A stretch of 64,000 nt of DNA from Lentzea fradiae (GTDB lineage: Bacteria; Actinomycetota; Actinomycetes; Mycobacteriales; Pseudonocardiaceae): assembly GCF_900100955.1 (NCBI RefSeq), contig NZ_FNCC01000008.1:124001-188000 (forward strand), read 5' to 3'. This document shows positions 25,758 through 30,693 of this stretch, in pieces (the first letter of the stretch is position 1; every line of letters starts with the position of its first letter). A program made the position numbers and the translations under genes. The notes below the pieces were generated by a model, which was not told the DNA's origin, ran no database searches, and saw nothing but the letters and a program-made list of their open reading frames with translations.

Positions 25758-27072
25758 GGCGTTCCCACGGCCCCTTGTCGGGGTCGTAGCCGGTGTAGAG
25801 GTCGCCTTCGAAGCGCGTGGGCCGCGGCCTGGCGGGTCTCACCGCGCGCTTCACGGTCTTCGCCGCGGGCTCGGGTTCCGGCTCGGGCTCGGGGGTCTCG
25901 GCGGGGGTGGCCTCCTGGCGGACGGCGACGAGGGCGGCCAGCGCCGTCGTCACCGGCACCGCGGCCACCAGGCCGATGCTGCCGACCAGGGTTCGCACGA
26001 TCTCCGACGCGATCTGCTGGGACGTCAGGATCTCGCCCATCGACCGCCCGGCGAGCGAGATCGCGAGCAGCAGCGGCAGCGCCGCGCCCGCGTAGGCCAT
26101 GACGAGGGTGTTCACGACGGACGACATGTGGTCGCGGCCGATGCGCGACCCGGCGGCGAACAGTTCGCGCCACGTCAGCTTCTCGTTGGCCCGCCGCAGC
26201 TCCCACACGGCGCTGGTCTGCGTCACCGTCACGTCGTCGAGCACGCCCAGCGCGCCGATCAGCGTGCCCGCGAGCAGCAGCCCGCGGGTGTCGATGTCGG
26301 TGCCGAGCACGGTGACGAGGTTGGTGGTGTCCTCGTCGAGGCCGGTGAGCTTCGCGAACGCCGAGAACATCGCGCCCAGCACGCCGATCAGCGCGAGGCT
26401 GACGAGCGTGCCCAGCACGGCGGTCGACGTGCGCGCGGTGACCCCGTGGGTCAGGTAGAGCGCCACGAACATGATCAGTCCGGCGCCGACCACCGCGACC
26501 ATCAGCGGGTCCTTGCCCGCGAGGATCGACGGCATGATGAACAGCACCAGCACCAGGAAGCTCAGCAGCAGCGCGCCGAGCGCCGCGAGGCCCTGCCAGC
26601 GGCCGAGCAGCAGCACGGCGCCCGCGAACAGCAGCGCCAGCACGACGAGCGACCAGCCGCGCTGGAAGTCCACGATCTGGTACGACTCGGCCGCCTGCGG
26701 CTGGCTGCCCGCGTAGGACAGCACGACCTCGTCGCCGACCTGGAACTTCGGCGCGCCGGGGCCGTCGATGTTCGGGATCGTGACGCTCTGCCCGCTTGCC
26801 TCGCCGTCGGTCATCCGCACGGTGACGGCGACGCACTTCTCGCCGCAGTTCGCCTGCACGCCGGTCACGACGGCCTCGACGGGCGTCTGGTGCAGCCCGA
26901 CCTCGGCGCCGGTCTTCTGCTCGTGCCCGAACGGGTAGAGCAGCGCCGCGCCGACGAGCGTGGCCAGCGCCAATGGCACCAGCAGCCACATCAGCAACGT
27001 GCGAACGCGCTGAGACGCCGGTTCGTCGTTCAGTGCGTGGCTATGCCCGTGACCGTGACCCACGCGCGACAT
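25678..27072 (-). CDS. YibE/F family membrane protein
   Basis: 464 residues. An N-terminal His-rich stretch (H-G-H-G-H-S-H) is followed by a first helix, an extracytoplasmic domain of about 110 residues with two cysteines (N-C-G-E-K-C), and a multi-helix YibE/F region (about 145-395) containing G-A-L-G-V-L-D-D-V-T-V-T-Q. The tail (395-464) is Pro/Glu then Arg/Pro-rich and non-conserved. YibE/F proteins are putative transporters of unknown substrate; the His-rich start hints at metal binding (inference). Its 5' end overlaps nadR by 32 bases. Confidence 0.85.
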   Translation of the reverse strand: MSRVGHGHGHSHALNDEPASQRVRTLLMWLLVPLALATLVGAALLYPFGHEQKTGAEVGLHQTPVEAVVTGVQANCGEKCVAVTVRMTDGEASGQSVTIPNIDGPGAPKFQVGDEVVLSYAGSQPQAAESYQIVDFQRGWSLVVLALLFAGAVLLLGRWQGLAALGALLLSFLVLVLFIMPSILAGKDPLMVAVVGAGLIMFVALYLTHGVTARTSTAVLGTLVSLALIGVLGAMFSAFAKLTGLDEDTTNLVTVLGTDIDTRGLLLAGTLIGALGVLDDVTVTQTSAVWELRRANEKLTWRELFAAGSRIGRDHMSSVVNTLVMAYAGAALPLLLAISLAGRSMGEILTSQQIASEIVRTLVGSIGLVAAVPVTTALAALVAVRQEATPAETPEPEPEPEPAAKTVKRAVRPARPRPTRFEGDLYTGYDPDKGPWERPSRPAARRAASGRPAPPARRRSSGSP

Positions 27073-28102
27073 CCTGCCGCATGAGGTGTTCGACGGCCGT
27101 CACGGCCGTGGCCAACCTGTCGTGCGTGAGCTTGAGCCACGGCACGCCGCGCCGTTCCAGCTCGCGTTCGAACAGGCCGGTCATCCACTCCCGCAGGTGC
27201 TCGCCGTCGCGCCAGCCGTCCTGTTCGAACGGAACGCCCGCGTGGTCGGTCAGCAGGTAGAGGTCCGGTTCGGTGCCCTGGAAGACCTCCGGGCGGAACC
27301 CGAGGTAGCGCTCGCCCCACACCGTCGCGGCGAACGCGTCGTTGTCCGCGACGGTCAGTGGCGCCGTCGAGGCCCGGATGCGGCGTTCCTGCTCGTGCGC
27401 AACGTCTTCGAAGTCGCCGAGCGTCCACACCAGACCGTCCACGGTGGCGTCCGGGTCGAACGCGCGTTCGGCGGTGAGCTTGTGCTCGGTGTGCTCACGG
27501 CCGTACTCGGCGATCCAGGGCGCGCCGAAGTGGTCGGCGAGCTGCTTCGACAGCGTCGTGGTGCCGGTGCTCTCGGCGCCGACGACCACGACCTTCCAGC
27601 CGAGCCCGCGTTGCGTGGCGGGGGCGAGGTGGTGCCAGTTCGCGACCGGGTCGGTGCGCACCGCCGTGCCGGAGACCGGGTGGGTGAGGCGGTCGAGGTC
27701 GACGAGCACGTGCTGCGCGCCGAGCCGCCGGGCGAGCTCCTCGCCGTACTTCTCGCTGGAGAACACGGCGTCGACCGGGGTCCGGGCCGGGTCGCCGTCG
27801 GCGATGGCGCGGCGGGCGAGGACCGCGCGCGTCAGCCGGACGTGCTTGTCCCAGATCTCGTCGGAGTCGAAGTCCATCGGGATGTCGTCGAGGTCGCCGA
27901 TGATCCGCACGCCGGGGGTGTGGGCGTGCGTCTCGGTCATCCAGCGCACGCGGTGTTCGAGCGGGAGGGTCTCGTGGGACGCCGCGAGCACGGTGACGGT
28001 CGTGCGTTCGCTGCGCGAGGCCGCGGTCTCGATGAGGTGGTGGTGCCCGTTGTGCGGTGGGTAGAACTTGCCGAGCACGAGCGCGTGTTCGAATTCCTTC
28101 AC
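27041..28102 (-). CDS. nadR: Bifunctional NMN adenylyltransferase / nicotinamide riboside kinase (NadR)
   Basis: 353 residues. N-terminal nucleotidyltransferase: G-K-F-Y-P-P-H-N-G-H-H-H (HxGH-type site, about 11-22). C-terminal kinase: P-loop-like G-A-E-S-T-G-T-T-T. Together they make NMN from nicotinamide riboside and then NAD. Unlike enteric NadR there is no N-terminal helix-turn-helix, so it is not a repressor. GTG 28102 overlaps the pnuC stop (GTGA), giving tight coupling with the transporter that supplies its substrate. Confidence 0.92.
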   Translation of the reverse strand: MKEFEHALVLGKFYPPHNGHHHLIETAASRSERTTVTVLAASHETLPLEHRVRWMTETHAHTPGVRIIGDLDDIPMDFDSDEIWDKHVRLTRAVLARRAIADGDPARTPVDAVFSSEKYGEELARRLGAQHVLVDLDRLTHPVSGTAVRTDPVANWHHLAPATQRGLGWKVVVVGAESTGTTTLSKQLADHFGAPWIAEYGREHTEHKLTAERAFDPDATVDGLVWTLGDFEDVAHEQERRIRASTAPLTVADNDAFAATVWGERYLGFRPEVFQGTEPDLYLLTDHAGVPFEQDGWRDGEHLREWMTGLFERELERRGVPWLKLTHDRLATAVTAVEHLMRQDVARGSRSRA

Positions 28103-28671
28103 GCCGGCACCTCGTCGCTCTTCAGGTCCTTGAGCCAGTTCCGCAACCCCAGCACGCACAACATCATGAACCCCACGTACAACACAGCCGTCAGGTACAA
28201 CTCCTTGTAGGCGTAGAGCGGTACGTAGATGACGTCGGCCGCGATCCACAGCCACCAGCACTCCACCTTCTTGCGCGCCTGACCCCAGGTGGCGAGCAGC
28301 GACAGGACCGTGGTGACGGCGTCCCAGAAGGGCACTGTGGACTCGGTGAACGTGATGAGGACCCAGTGCAGCAACGCGGTGCCGAGCACGCCGGCGACCG
28401 CGAGCCAGACCCACTGCGGGGTCGTCGTGCGGCTGACGTGCAGCGTGCTGTGGCTTTCGCCGCCCCGCACCCACGCCCACCAGCCGTAGACCGCGAGCAC
28501 CATGTAGACGACCTGGAGGCCGGAGTCCGCGTACAGGCCGCTGGTCCAGAACAGCACCAGGAACGCGATGTTGTTCGCGATGCCGATGGGCCAGTTCCAG
28601 GGGTTCTGCCTGGCGACCAGCCACACGCACAGTGCTCCGGTGACGAAGCCTGCTACCTCAACGGGTGACAC
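28099..28671 (-). CDS. pnuC: Nicotinamide riboside transporter PnuC
   Basis: 190 residues with seven hydrophobic segments and PnuC features: N-P-W-N-W-P-I-G-I-A-N-N, Y-G-W-W-A-W, and W-W-L-W-I-A-A-D-V-I-Y-V-P-L-Y near the end. It facilitates entry of nicotinamide riboside, which NadR phosphorylates and traps. GTG 28671 is chosen because AAGGAG lies 5 bases upstream; the longer frame would run across the LexA box. It is divergent from the radical SAM gene, with the box 21 bases from its start. Confidence 0.92.
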   Translation of the reverse strand: MSPVEVAGFVTGALCVWLVARQNPWNWPIGIANNIAFLVLFWTSGLYADSGLQVVYMVLAVYGWWAWVRGGESHSTLHVSRTTTPQWVWLAVAGVLGTALLHWVLITFTESTVPFWDAVTTVLSLLATWGQARKKVECWWLWIAADVIYVPLYAYKELYLTAVLYVGFMMLCVLGLRNWLKDLKSDEVPA

Positions 28672-28680
28672 GGGCACTCC

Positions 28681-28709
28681 TTGACCGCTGTTCGAACATG
28701 TGTTCGAAT
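28681..28709 (+). promoter_or_regulatory. Promoter of the radical SAM gene with perfect LexA box
   Basis: TTGACC (28681-28686) and TCGAAT (28704-28709) are 17 bases apart and predict a start at the GTG at 28717, so the mRNA may be leaderless. TCGAAC-ATGT-GTTCGA at 28692-28707 matches the actinobacterial SOS consensus at all 12 defined positions; flanking T and A extend it to 14. LexA bound here would cover the spacer and -10, and could also block the divergent pnuC promoter. Confidence 0.85.
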
Positions 28710-28716
28710 CGATGTC

Positions 28717-30693
28717 GTGCGATGGGACGGGCAAAAACTCGAGGCAGAGCCGCAACAGGCACTACCGGGGCTACCGGGACTGGTGCGCAGCGTACGAACA
28801 CCGGAGTTCGCGGACGTGGTGTTCCACGAGGTCCGCGCCAAGTCCGTGCTGAACGGGGTGCCGGGGTCGTCGCTGCCCTTCTCGTGGACGGTGAACCCGT
28901 ACCGCGGCTGTTCGCACGCCTGCACCTACTGTCTGGCCGGCGACACGCCGATCCTCCTGGCCAACGGTCGCACGAAACCGTTGGCGGAGCTGCGGGAGGG
29001 CGATGAGATCTACGGCACCGAGCTCACCGGCAACTACCGGCGGTACAAGCTCACCACGGTTCTCGCGCACTGGGAGACGCGCAAGGAGGCGTACCGGCTG
29101 ACGCTGGAGGACGGCACGACCGTCGTCGCGTCCGGGGACCACCGGTTCCTGACCGACCGCGGCTGGAAGCACGTGACGGGCGAGACGTCCGGCACCGGCA
29201 GGCGTCCGCACCTGACGACCGGCAACAAGCTGATGGGCACGGGGGCTTTCGTCGAGCAGCCCACCGTGACCGACGACTACCGCCGCGGCTACCTGCGCGG
29301 CGTGGTCGAGGACGAGAACGAGTTCCGCATCCCCCTGGCCGACATCGAGGCCATGGACCGCACGCAGGAGTACCTCGACTACTTCGGCGTGCGAGAAGGG
29401 AGTGGATTTCTGCACCAGGTGCGCGCGCTCGCGTCCTGGCAGATAGCCCCGAACCCGGACTGGCTCAAGGGGTTCCTCGCCGGCGCGTTCGACTACCTCG
29501 GCACCTGCTCGCGCAGCATCCTGCGGATGTCGTCGCGCAGCGCCACCGTCGTCGAGGCGATCTGCCTGGCGCTCAAGCACTTCCACTTCGACTTCGCGGT
29601 CGAGGAGCTGCGCCGCCGCCGCGGCGTGCGGGTCGTGCGGCTGCGCGGCGGGCTGCGGGAGAACCTGCGCTTCTTCCACACCGTCGACCCGGCCATCACC
29701 CGCAAGCGCGACATCGACGGCGTGGCGATCAAGTCGCAGCAGCCGCTGGGCGTCGTCTCCGTCGAGCCGCTGGGGGAGAGGACGCTCTACGACATCACGA
29801 CCGGCACGGGTGACTTCATCGCGAACGGGGTGGTGTCGCACAACTGCTTCGCCCGCAAGACGCACACCTACCTCGACCTCGACTCCGGCCGCGACTTCGA
29901 CACCCAGGTGGTCGTGAAGGTCAACGCGGGGGAGGTGCTGTCGCGCCAGCTGCGGTCGTCGAAGTGGAAGCAGGAGCACGTCGCGCTGGGCACCAACACC
30001 GACCCGTACCAGCGGGCGGAGGGGCGGTACGCCTTGATGCCAGGGATCATCGAGGCGCTCACCGCCTCCCGCACGCCCTTCTCGATCCTCACGAAGGGCA
30101 CGCTGCTGGCGCGCGACCTGCCGCTGCTGTCGGCGGCGGCCGAGGTGGTGCCGGTCGGGATCGCCGTGTCGCTCGCGTTGCTGGACCGCGACCTGCACCG
30201 GTCGCTGGAGCCCGGCACGCCGACGCCCGCCGCGCGGCTGGAGCTGGTGCGCAAGGTGCGCGAGGCCGGTCTGCCGTGCGGGGTGTTCGTGGCGCCGGTG
30301 CTCCCCGAGCTGACGGATTCGGTGGAGCAGCTGGACTTCCTGCTCGAACAGATCGCCGCCGCGGGCGCGACCGGGGTGACGGTGCTGCCGCTGCACCTGC
30401 GGCCGGGCGCCAAGGAGTGGTTCGCCGCGTGGTTGCGGCGCGAGCACCCGGACCTGGTGGAGACGTACCGGTACCTGTACGGCAACCGGTCCTATGTGGA
30501 CAAGCGGTACCGGGTCCGGCTGGCGTCGCGGGTCGCCCCGCTGGTCGAGAAGCACGGTCTCGCGCCGAGCGGGCGTTCCGCCGACGCCGTCACCGGTGTG
30601 CCCGGCGACGACGACGGCGTGTGGCCCGACGGCAGCCTGCCGGTGGGTGTGCCGGCGCCGCGCGTGGACCAGGAACAACTGACCCTGCTGTGA
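28717..30693 (+). CDS. Intein-containing Rv2578c-family radical SAM protein
   Basis: 658 residues as translated; the spliced protein would be about 353. The radical SAM cluster motif is split: C-S-H-A-C-T-Y before the intein and C-F-A-R after it, restoring C-x3-C-x2-C. The host continues with D-L-D-S-G-R-D-F-D-T-Q-V-V-V-K, G-T-N-T-D-P-Y-Q-R-A-E-G-R-Y and I-L-T-K-G-T-L, typical of the SplB-like Rv2578c family, whose reaction is not established. GTG 28717 gives the family start (V-R-W); the frame extends to 28681 but crosses the LexA box. There is no ribosome site, consistent with leaderless translation. The box suggests a DNA-damage role. Confidence 0.92.
   Translation: MRWDGQKLEAEPQQALPGLPGLVRSVRTPEFADVVFHEVRAKSVLNGVPGSSLPFSWTVNPYRGCSHACTYCLAGDTPILLANGRTKPLAELREGDEIYGTELTGNYRRYKLTTVLAHWETRKEAYRLTLEDGTTVVASGDHRFLTDRGWKHVTGETSGTGRRPHLTTGNKLMGTGAFVEQPTVTDDYRRGYLRGVVEDENEFRIPLADIEAMDRTQEYLDYFGVREGSGFLHQVRALASWQIAPNPDWLKGFLAGAFDYLGTCSRSILRMSSRSATVVEAICLALKHFHFDFAVEELRRRRGVRVVRLRGGLRENLRFFHTVDPAITRKRDIDGVAIKSQQPLGVVSVEPLGERTLYDITTGTGDFIANGVVSHNCFARKTHTYLDLDSGRDFDTQVVVKVNAGEVLSRQLRSSKWKQEHVALGTNTDPYQRAEGRYALMPGIIEALTASRTPFSILTKGTLLARDLPLLSAAAEVVPVGIAVSLALLDRDLHRSLEPGTPTPAARLELVRKVREAGLPCGVFVAPVLPELTDSVEQLDFLLEQIAAAGATGVTVLPLHLRPGAKEWFAAWLRREHPDLVETYRYLYGNRSYVDKRYRVRLASRVAPLVEKHGLAPSGRSADAVTGVPGDDDGVWPDGSLPVGVPAPRVDQEQLTLL
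28930..29844 (+). other. Intein (305 residues) with degenerate LAGLIDADG domain
   Basis: The intein spans protein residues 72-376. It starts C-L-A-G-D-T-P-I-L (block A), has a B-block S-G-D-H (His at intein 71) and ends V-V-S-H-N before Cys+1 of the host. The middle (about 115-270) is a LAGLIDADG homing endonuclease. Motif 1 reads L-R-G-V-V-E-D-E-N (122-130), keeping an acid. Motif 2 reads L-A-G-A-F-D-Y-L-G (183-191), with Leu where the catalytic acid should be. Splicing residues look intact but the endonuclease is probably inactive. Confidence 0.9.

Follow-up and report, generated by a model that had tools for sequence, protein, structure and literature searches.

An intein lineage at the third cluster cysteine of radical SAM-type proteins, with a probably immobile member in Lentzea

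Why should an intein lie exactly ahead of the third cysteine of a radical S-adenosylmethionine (SAM) cluster motif, and does this position turn splicing into a switch? The question is raised by a gene of Lentzea fradiae (assembly GCF_900100955.1) located on the plus strand at 28717..30693 of a 64,000-nucleotide stretch of contig NZ_FNCC01000008.1 (positions 124,001 to 188,000; the whole stretch is called the window below). The gene carries a 305-residue intein, from Cys1 to His-Asn, at 28930..29844. A sequence-only reading of the window had proposed that the host enzyme cannot bind its [4Fe-4S] cluster before splicing, so that splicing could gate activity, and had rated a coupling with a perfect LexA box as the most interesting point. 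Our analysis leads, with fairly high confidence, to the following reading: the intein belongs to a lineage whose homing site is the third cluster cysteine, is probably immobile in Lentzea, and has a junction that is possibly redox-sensitive.

In a profile search of the whole protein, NF038136 (intein-containing Rv2578c family radical SAM protein) scored 844.6 bits against a cut-off of 700, and NF038135 (radical SAM, Rv2578c family) matched the host protein with 508.6 bits (cut-off, 430). The intein-bearing family is already curated by NCBI as NF038136, in agreement with the earlier remark that inteins in this family are known. The alignment starts at residue 13 of an open reading frame listed as 28681-30693, which opens with TTG at 28681, upstream of the LexA box; translation probably does not begin at this TTG, and the GTG at 28717 is the likely start. 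The C-extein (29845..30693) matches the radical SAM domain PF04055 (50.3 bits) and contains the barrel, for which Foldseek of the whole precursor model returned lipoyl synthase (5exi, E 5e-5); Hint inteins were also matched. Splicing in silico leaves CxxxCxxC in the host sequence. The host is thus predicted to be an Rv2578c-family radical SAM enzyme that binds a [4Fe-4S] cluster and cleaves SAM.

The position of the intein could be read directly from the residues, and the placement first described is exact to the nucleotide. The N-extein (28717..28929) ends in CSHACTY, within the flank Asn-Pro-Tyr-Arg-Gly-Cys-Ser-His-Ala-Cys-Thr-Tyr, and the downstream flank is Cys-Phe-Ala-Arg-Lys-Thr-His. In protein numbering, the junctions are C77-SHA-C81-TY/C84 ... 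HN/C389-FARKTH (slashes mark the splice sites), where C84 is the intein Cys1 (28930-28932), the terminal Asn lies at 29842-29844, and the +1 Cys lies at 29845..29847. Ligation yields C-x3-C-x2-C with the +1 residue in third place, which bears out the proposal that the third cluster cysteine is also the +1 splicing nucleophile. The first and second predicted cluster ligands are Cys-7 (28909..28911) and Cys-3 (28921..28923), the latter being the CxxC partner of Cys1. The splicing parts of the Hint fold comprise 28930..29253, with the block B His at 29140-29142, and 29716..29844, which ends in SHN. The locus therefore holds the class 1 residue set (Cys/Ser1, block B His, terminal His-Asn, and Cys/Ser/Thr +1) as well as the Hint fold. 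TIGR01445 and PF14890 exceeded their cut-offs on the isolated intein; on the whole protein, PF14890 scored 33.3 versus a cut-off of 35.8. From these residues, we infer a class 1 intein that would self-splice by the Cys1/+1 Cys route, and an enzyme that would be active only after splicing.

To place this junction among its relatives, we compared Rv2578c homologs with and without the intein. The insertion point was identical in all 120 homologous proteins among the matches listed (8000 scored) and in all 110 parsed intein loci (81 + 28 + 1), and no insertion at another position was encountered, although the locus parser searches for this very junction and would have missed any other. The loci, drawn from the order and class of the window, comprise 110 intein-bearing and 95 intein-less copies. 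No locus failed to parse; the parsed set leaves out L001, which coincides with the window, L158, which coincides with L060, and L187-L204, which are weak matches or second fragments of counted genomes. Since loci were hand-picked from longer listings, the share with an intein does not estimate that in the family; L084 and L102 are sequence-identical to named Lentzea loci, and 25 of the first 81 loci are Lentzea-type near-copies. These 81 loci show no variation at Cys1, the C-terminal His-Asn, the +1 Cys, Cys-3, or Cys-7, and block B reads SGDHRFL in 71, with close variants in the other 10. Intein-less relatives have a continuous gene with no scar at the site. For example, L016 (empty) and L030 (a 143-residue intein), which belong to one genus, are identical at 138/150 nucleotides to the left of the site and 558/600 to the right.

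Related inteins occupy the same site in other proteins. A tblastn search of plasmids found, on a Streptomyces plasmid, an open frame (L208:1890-3725) encoding a DUF5131 protein (PF07505, 320.6 bits), whose intein lies directly before the third Cys of the host C-x6-C-x2-C motif. The PLSDB table lists no gene for this frame, and a gene for a three-Cys-motif partner protein (TcmP) adjoins it. A protein search seeded with the L208 intein alone (residues 57-391) gave 373 matches, the best 120 of which were listed (P0244-P0363). Both junctions could be parsed in 111 of these 120, comprising 70 DUF5131 proteins, 40 PA0069-like proteins, and 1 other radical SAM host, and in all 111 the intein lies ahead of the third Cys, with the +1 Cys present. 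That parser requires Cys-3; a looser one gave 99 proteins with Cys-3 and 12 that it wrongly anchored at the host's first Cys. No other insertion site appears in the 9 unparsed proteins: in P0350 and P0358, the pattern failed and the usual site is visible; P0244, P0278, P0305, P0314, and P0317 start inside the intein; and P0275 and P0277 are free-standing DUF5131-type intein remnants without Cys1, recognizable exteins, or junctions. Four PA0069-like hosts tested exceeded NF033668 (438-449 bits; cut-off, 360), and the remaining 36 were assigned from the residues following the junction. Ten PA0069 and DUF5131 hosts tested scored under the NF038136 cut-off, and NCBIfam listed no intein-specific model dedicated to them.

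We then asked how these inteins are related. In a tree of 90 inteins, those of Rv2578c hosts form one branch (support of 100 in the Shimodaira-Hasegawa-like approximate likelihood ratio test), and those of PA0069 hosts form another (99) nested within the DUF5131 inteins; three host changes suffice. The tree samples 28 of 109 Rv2578c inteins (only those of at least 240 residues), 28 of 40 PA0069-like, 33 of 70 DUF5131, and the 1 other. The DNA of the empty site is similar in two families, TGCGACnAC/TGCTAnGC (23 sites) and TGnnnnTAC/TGCTTCGC (95 sites), the slash marking the insertion point. With related inteins at the third-cysteine site of two or more further protein families, the site is a real pattern, and we read it as one intein lineage that would track the cluster motif between protein families. 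Among phage records, none of the 58 that matched covered 80% of the query; two viral contigs carry radical SAM relatives (L205 and L206). A further viral entry, L207:819-4088 of virus Rctr197k, is annotated as “radical SAM protein-like”; by eye, its translation resembles a helicase with an intein, so the annotation looks wrong, and we set it aside. In the literature searched, which mostly left subscription papers outside, we found no report on inteins of Rv2578c, PA0069, or DUF5131 proteins. As far as these searches go, neither the occupation of the third-cysteine site in further hosts nor the conserved but degraded endonuclease treated below seems to have been described.

The central part of the Lentzea intein (29254..29715) is a degenerate, probably inactive LAGLIDADG endonuclease, according to the alignment, its motifs, and its fold. 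The Pfam search gave no LAGLIDADG domain match in the intein at E values up to 1, yet Foldseek still recognizes the endonuclease fold (I-DmoI, E 8.8e-5). Motif 1 (29293..29319) reads LRGVVEDEN, as opposed to LCGMVRGDG or LTGMVRGDA in intact relatives, and has lost the small ninth residue, with a deletion behind the motif. Motif 2 (29476..29502) reads LAGAFDYLG, where intact relatives have LAGIFDAEG. The acid at the eighth place of motif 2 is gone from all 25 Lentzea loci, 24 of which have LAGAFDYLG and 1 an FNG ending. By comparison, relatives with inteins of 340 and 345 residues keep the acid in both motifs in 25/25 loci (7 + 18), and a clade with 292-residue inteins has lost both in 9/9. Lentzea thus lacks the pair of acids found in mobile LAGLIDADG enzymes. 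Given the loss of the motif 2 acid and the deletion behind motif 1, the Lentzea endonuclease would no longer cut DNA, and the intein probably no longer homes. Members of NF038136 have the same host and the same insertion site; the Lentzea members differ in their degraded endonuclease.

The intein is present in all 24 Lentzea genomes examined, with no stop within the match in any. Among the 22 closest loci, best-segment identity is 91-94% in 21 (20 Lentzea and Nocardia sp. NRRL S-836) and 78% in 1 further Lentzea. In genus g111 (family f34), all 12 genomes carry a 152-residue intein without an endonuclease; a single branch (14 rows, support of 99) unites these inteins with those of two genomes from genus g133. 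Elsewhere the pattern is patchy: in genus g138, two genomes have endonuclease-less inteins and three have none. Across 185 loci placed on a tree of their exteins, intein presence switches at least 31 times. Synonymous divergence (pS) of intein and C-extein is nearly equal in g111 (0.261/0.262) and in the 292-residue clade (0.364/0.369), as expected from vertical descent. In the 345-residue clade, whose motifs are intact, pS is 0.517 for the intein versus 0.370 for the C-extein, which fits transfer.

Selection was gauged from the ratio of nonsynonymous to synonymous divergence (pN/pS). In 22 distinct Lentzea sequences, this ratio is 0.145 for the splicing part (95% interval, 0.096-0.202) and 0.111 for the C-extein (0.074-0.158). 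Two of the 24 Lentzea sequences duplicate others; they were counted once for pN/pS and twice for the comparison of intein and extein pS. In the 292-residue clade, pN/pS is 0.360 for the splicing part, 0.345 for the endonuclease part, and 0.205 for the C-extein. Two clades that retain intact motifs show weaker constraint on the endonuclease part than on the splicing part (0.445 versus 0.314, n = 17; 0.355 versus 0.192, n = 7). The Lentzea endonuclease part (29254-29715) has a low pS, 0.179, versus 0.275 in the splicing part and 0.311 in the C-extein.

These results can be assembled into one likely account. The homing target of a class 1 Hint/LAGLIDADG lineage would be the coding DNA for the [4Fe-4S] cysteine loop in radical-SAM-type proteins. 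Insertion just ahead of the third-cysteine codon would supply an invariant +1 Cys nucleophile and would also offer a DNA target that is similar across protein families. The same site may shield the intein from loss, since only exact deletion restores a working enzyme. In Lentzea, the intein is fixed in the genus and in frame, its homing probably lost, and splicing would still follow the standard Cys1/+1 Cys pathway to give the mature enzyme, as the invariant catalytic residues suggest. The LexA box is a family trait of the gene, separate from the intein.

Several observations weigh against this account. The search for further hosts began from one seed intein and its best 120 of 373 matches, so the breadth of hosts may be biased. 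When DUF5131 was examined across the class of the window (246 genomes, 21 matched), the intein C-junction occurred in 0/27 loci, and the uninterrupted motif was found in 25/27. In Lentzea, motif 1 keeps a Glu at the eighth, catalytic place in 23/25 loci, so that the loss of endonuclease activity is something we can only infer. The degraded endonuclease part is under strong purifying selection there (pN/pS, 0.152; 95% interval, 0.093-0.224), a constraint that exceeds the needs of a plain relic, unless the part is required for folding; relatives with inteins of 143-190 residues indicate that it is dispensable in them. Equal rates also fail in Lentzea, where pS is lower in the intein (0.228) than in the C-extein (0.311). 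Finally, the chemistry of splicing and homing is deduced throughout from conserved residues.

Does the LexA box tie the intein to the SOS response? The box, TCGAACATGTGTTCGA, lies at 28692..28707, outside the intein, and is assigned to no strand. It matches TCGAAC-N4-GTTCGA with zero mismatches, confirming that it is perfect, and ends 9 nucleotides ahead of the likely GTG start at 28717. It is the sole exact match in the window. Matches with up to 2 mismatches number 20 there, versus 3.18 expected from shuffles; weaker matches are thus common in this window. The 8.5-Mb genome has 9 perfect boxes and none for a reversed control pattern. Others of these nine boxes (L230-L238) adjoin lexA, an imuA' gene of the Rv3395c family, the gene for DNA polymerase IV, and dnaX; a SAV_6107-like HEPN protein neighbors one more, and a mycothiol-dependent isomerase-like protein yet another. 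M. tuberculosis Rv2578c appears on LexA regulon lists. An excerpt of a study of Streptomyces venezuelae places the radical SAM gene vnz_31145, which may not be of the same family, in the LexA regulon, with 19.97-fold induction by mitomycin C (PMC9380542).

The box proved equally frequent with and without the intein. In the first 157 loci, all from the order of the window except L054-L057 (another order), a box with at most 1 mismatch was found in 80/81 intein-bearing and 75/76 intein-less loci, at positions -184 to -264 relative to the Asn-Pro-Tyr codon; excluding L054-L057, the counts are 79/80 and 72/73. In a control of 500 nucleotides of C-extein coding sequence, such a box was found in 0/157 loci. 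The distance from box to start is 8-9 nucleotides in 6 of 7 loci inspected; for L030, the pattern chose a codon upstream of the box. Across all parsed loci of the class, the box is less constant than within the order (103/110 with the intein, 83/95 without). Of the 12 intein-less exceptions, 8 belong to families f33 and f34, and L161 has only 111 nucleotides of upstream sequence. The promoter box is thus kept in orthologs, as expected for the LexA regulon, whereas certain other families of the class have a degenerate version. In the genomes of family f33 (L224-L227), the best match has 2-3 mismatches, e.g., GGGAACAGATGTTCTA, so that the box is degenerate or absent. Since the box has the same position in intein-less relatives, it is a trait of the gene, independent of the intein, and the coupling of LexA and intein that had seemed most attractive is ruled out by the lack of association.

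The earlier claim that no cluster can bind before splicing does not follow either, because Cys1 replaces the third cysteine in the precursor and preserves the formal CxxxCxxC. The cysteines at the junction may nevertheless matter. Cys-3 and Cys1 have CxxC spacing in 81/81 loci, the spacing of the MoaA-type redox trap. MoaA is a radical SAM enzyme. According to excerpts of two reviews, the Pyrococcus abyssi MoaA intein likewise combines an N-extein Cys at -3 with the intein Cys1 (PMC10663303 and PMC3922620); its host family and domain of life differ, and the likeness noted is one of Cys spacing. In the Ssp DnaE redox trap (PDB 3nzm and 4gig), the C-PG-C of 3nzm aligns gap-free with the C-TY-C of our junction. 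There, Cys-3 was introduced by design, as the relevant passage of PMC3922620 states, whereas in Lentzea it is a host cluster ligand. The Mycobacterium smegmatis DnaBi1 intein also resides in a DNA-maintenance protein and has been proposed to pause under oxidation, but it is a class 3 intein with an internal disulfide (Cys48-Cys118) in which the extein is not involved, going by the portion of PMC6195587 at hand. As is reported for the MoaA intein, oxidation may stall splicing through Cys-3 and Cys1, to which we give slightly less than an even chance. The idea of redox gating is therefore better founded than first stated with respect to CxxC geometry and the MoaA precedent, and worse founded with respect to LexA.

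A stronger version would have the intein kept for this purpose: an oxidative Cys-3/Cys1 disulfide would block the N-S acyl shift, reduction would free splicing, and the SOS-induced enzyme would be active only in a reducing cell. We consider this unlikely. Cys-3 is already needed by the host as a cluster ligand, so that the site brings the CxxC at no cost, and selection for a switch cannot be read from it. Many relatives that share the LexA box have no intein (76 of the 157 chosen loci), box and intein are unassociated, and endonuclease-less inteins are absent in close relatives (L016 beside L030, and the mixed genus g138), which argues that such inteins are dispensable. In another reading, Cys-7, Cys-3, and Cys1 would hold an Fe-S cluster or a metal ion in the precursor, which would tie up Cys1 and delay splicing until this ligand leaves or is passed on. 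Such gating would agree with the CxxxCxxC that Cys1 completes in the precursor of 81/81 loci and with the C-x6-C-x2-C in the precursor of 60/70 DUF5131 hosts, but most class 1 inteins have Cys1 anyway. AlphaFold gives little help, as loop residues 77-80 and 391-405 of the precursor have predicted local distance difference test scores below 50, but residues 1-94 and 96-101 of an intein-less control (29 sequences, mean 64.2) are equally poor. Zinc is reported to inhibit a mycobacterial DnaB intein in an excerpt of PMC7360933. On balance, we hold cluster or metal gating to be very improbable.

Broader still is the idea that the lineage has specialized on the third cluster Cys in at least three host families, with Cys-7, Cys-3, and Cys1 acting as an Fe-S, metal, or disulfide sensor of cluster supply or oxidation, so that splicing proceeds only when a cluster is usable, and that the intein was kept for this in Lentzea and g111 without a working endonuclease; we regard this as improbable. 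At the opposite extreme, the intein may no longer splice and the enzyme may be dead in Lentzea. The degraded endonuclease part would suit such decay, but the splicing residues are invariant, pN/pS remains low in the C-extein and the splicing part of the 22 distinct sequences, and no stop occurs inside the match in 24/24 genomes; a dead enzyme is hardly credible.

The surroundings of the gene add some observations. In the divergent direction, the minus strand at 27041-28755 carries two genes, one for a nicotinamide mononucleotide transporter (PF04973) and a NadR-like one with AAA_28 and a cytidylyltransferase match that is weak and under its cut-off; the LexA box sits between the two directions of transcription. 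Streptomyces phage Samy inserts inside an Rv2578c-family gene, according to an excerpt of PMC12924846, so that the gene doubles as a phage attachment site. A table row in PMC3031603 records a deletion and an insertion that disrupt Rv2578c and Rv2579 in an outbreak strain, where the gene thus seems dispensable.

What the locus means depends in part on the junction. If splicing is sensitive to redox state or to the cluster, the whole intein lineage would be a set of natural switches on Fe-S enzymes, and intein-free sister species, mini-inteins, and full inteins offer ready controls at one site. Even if there is no switch, one intein lineage would have passed between protein families through a cofactor motif that they share, and in Lentzea a probably dead endonuclease domain is held under purifying selection across the genus.

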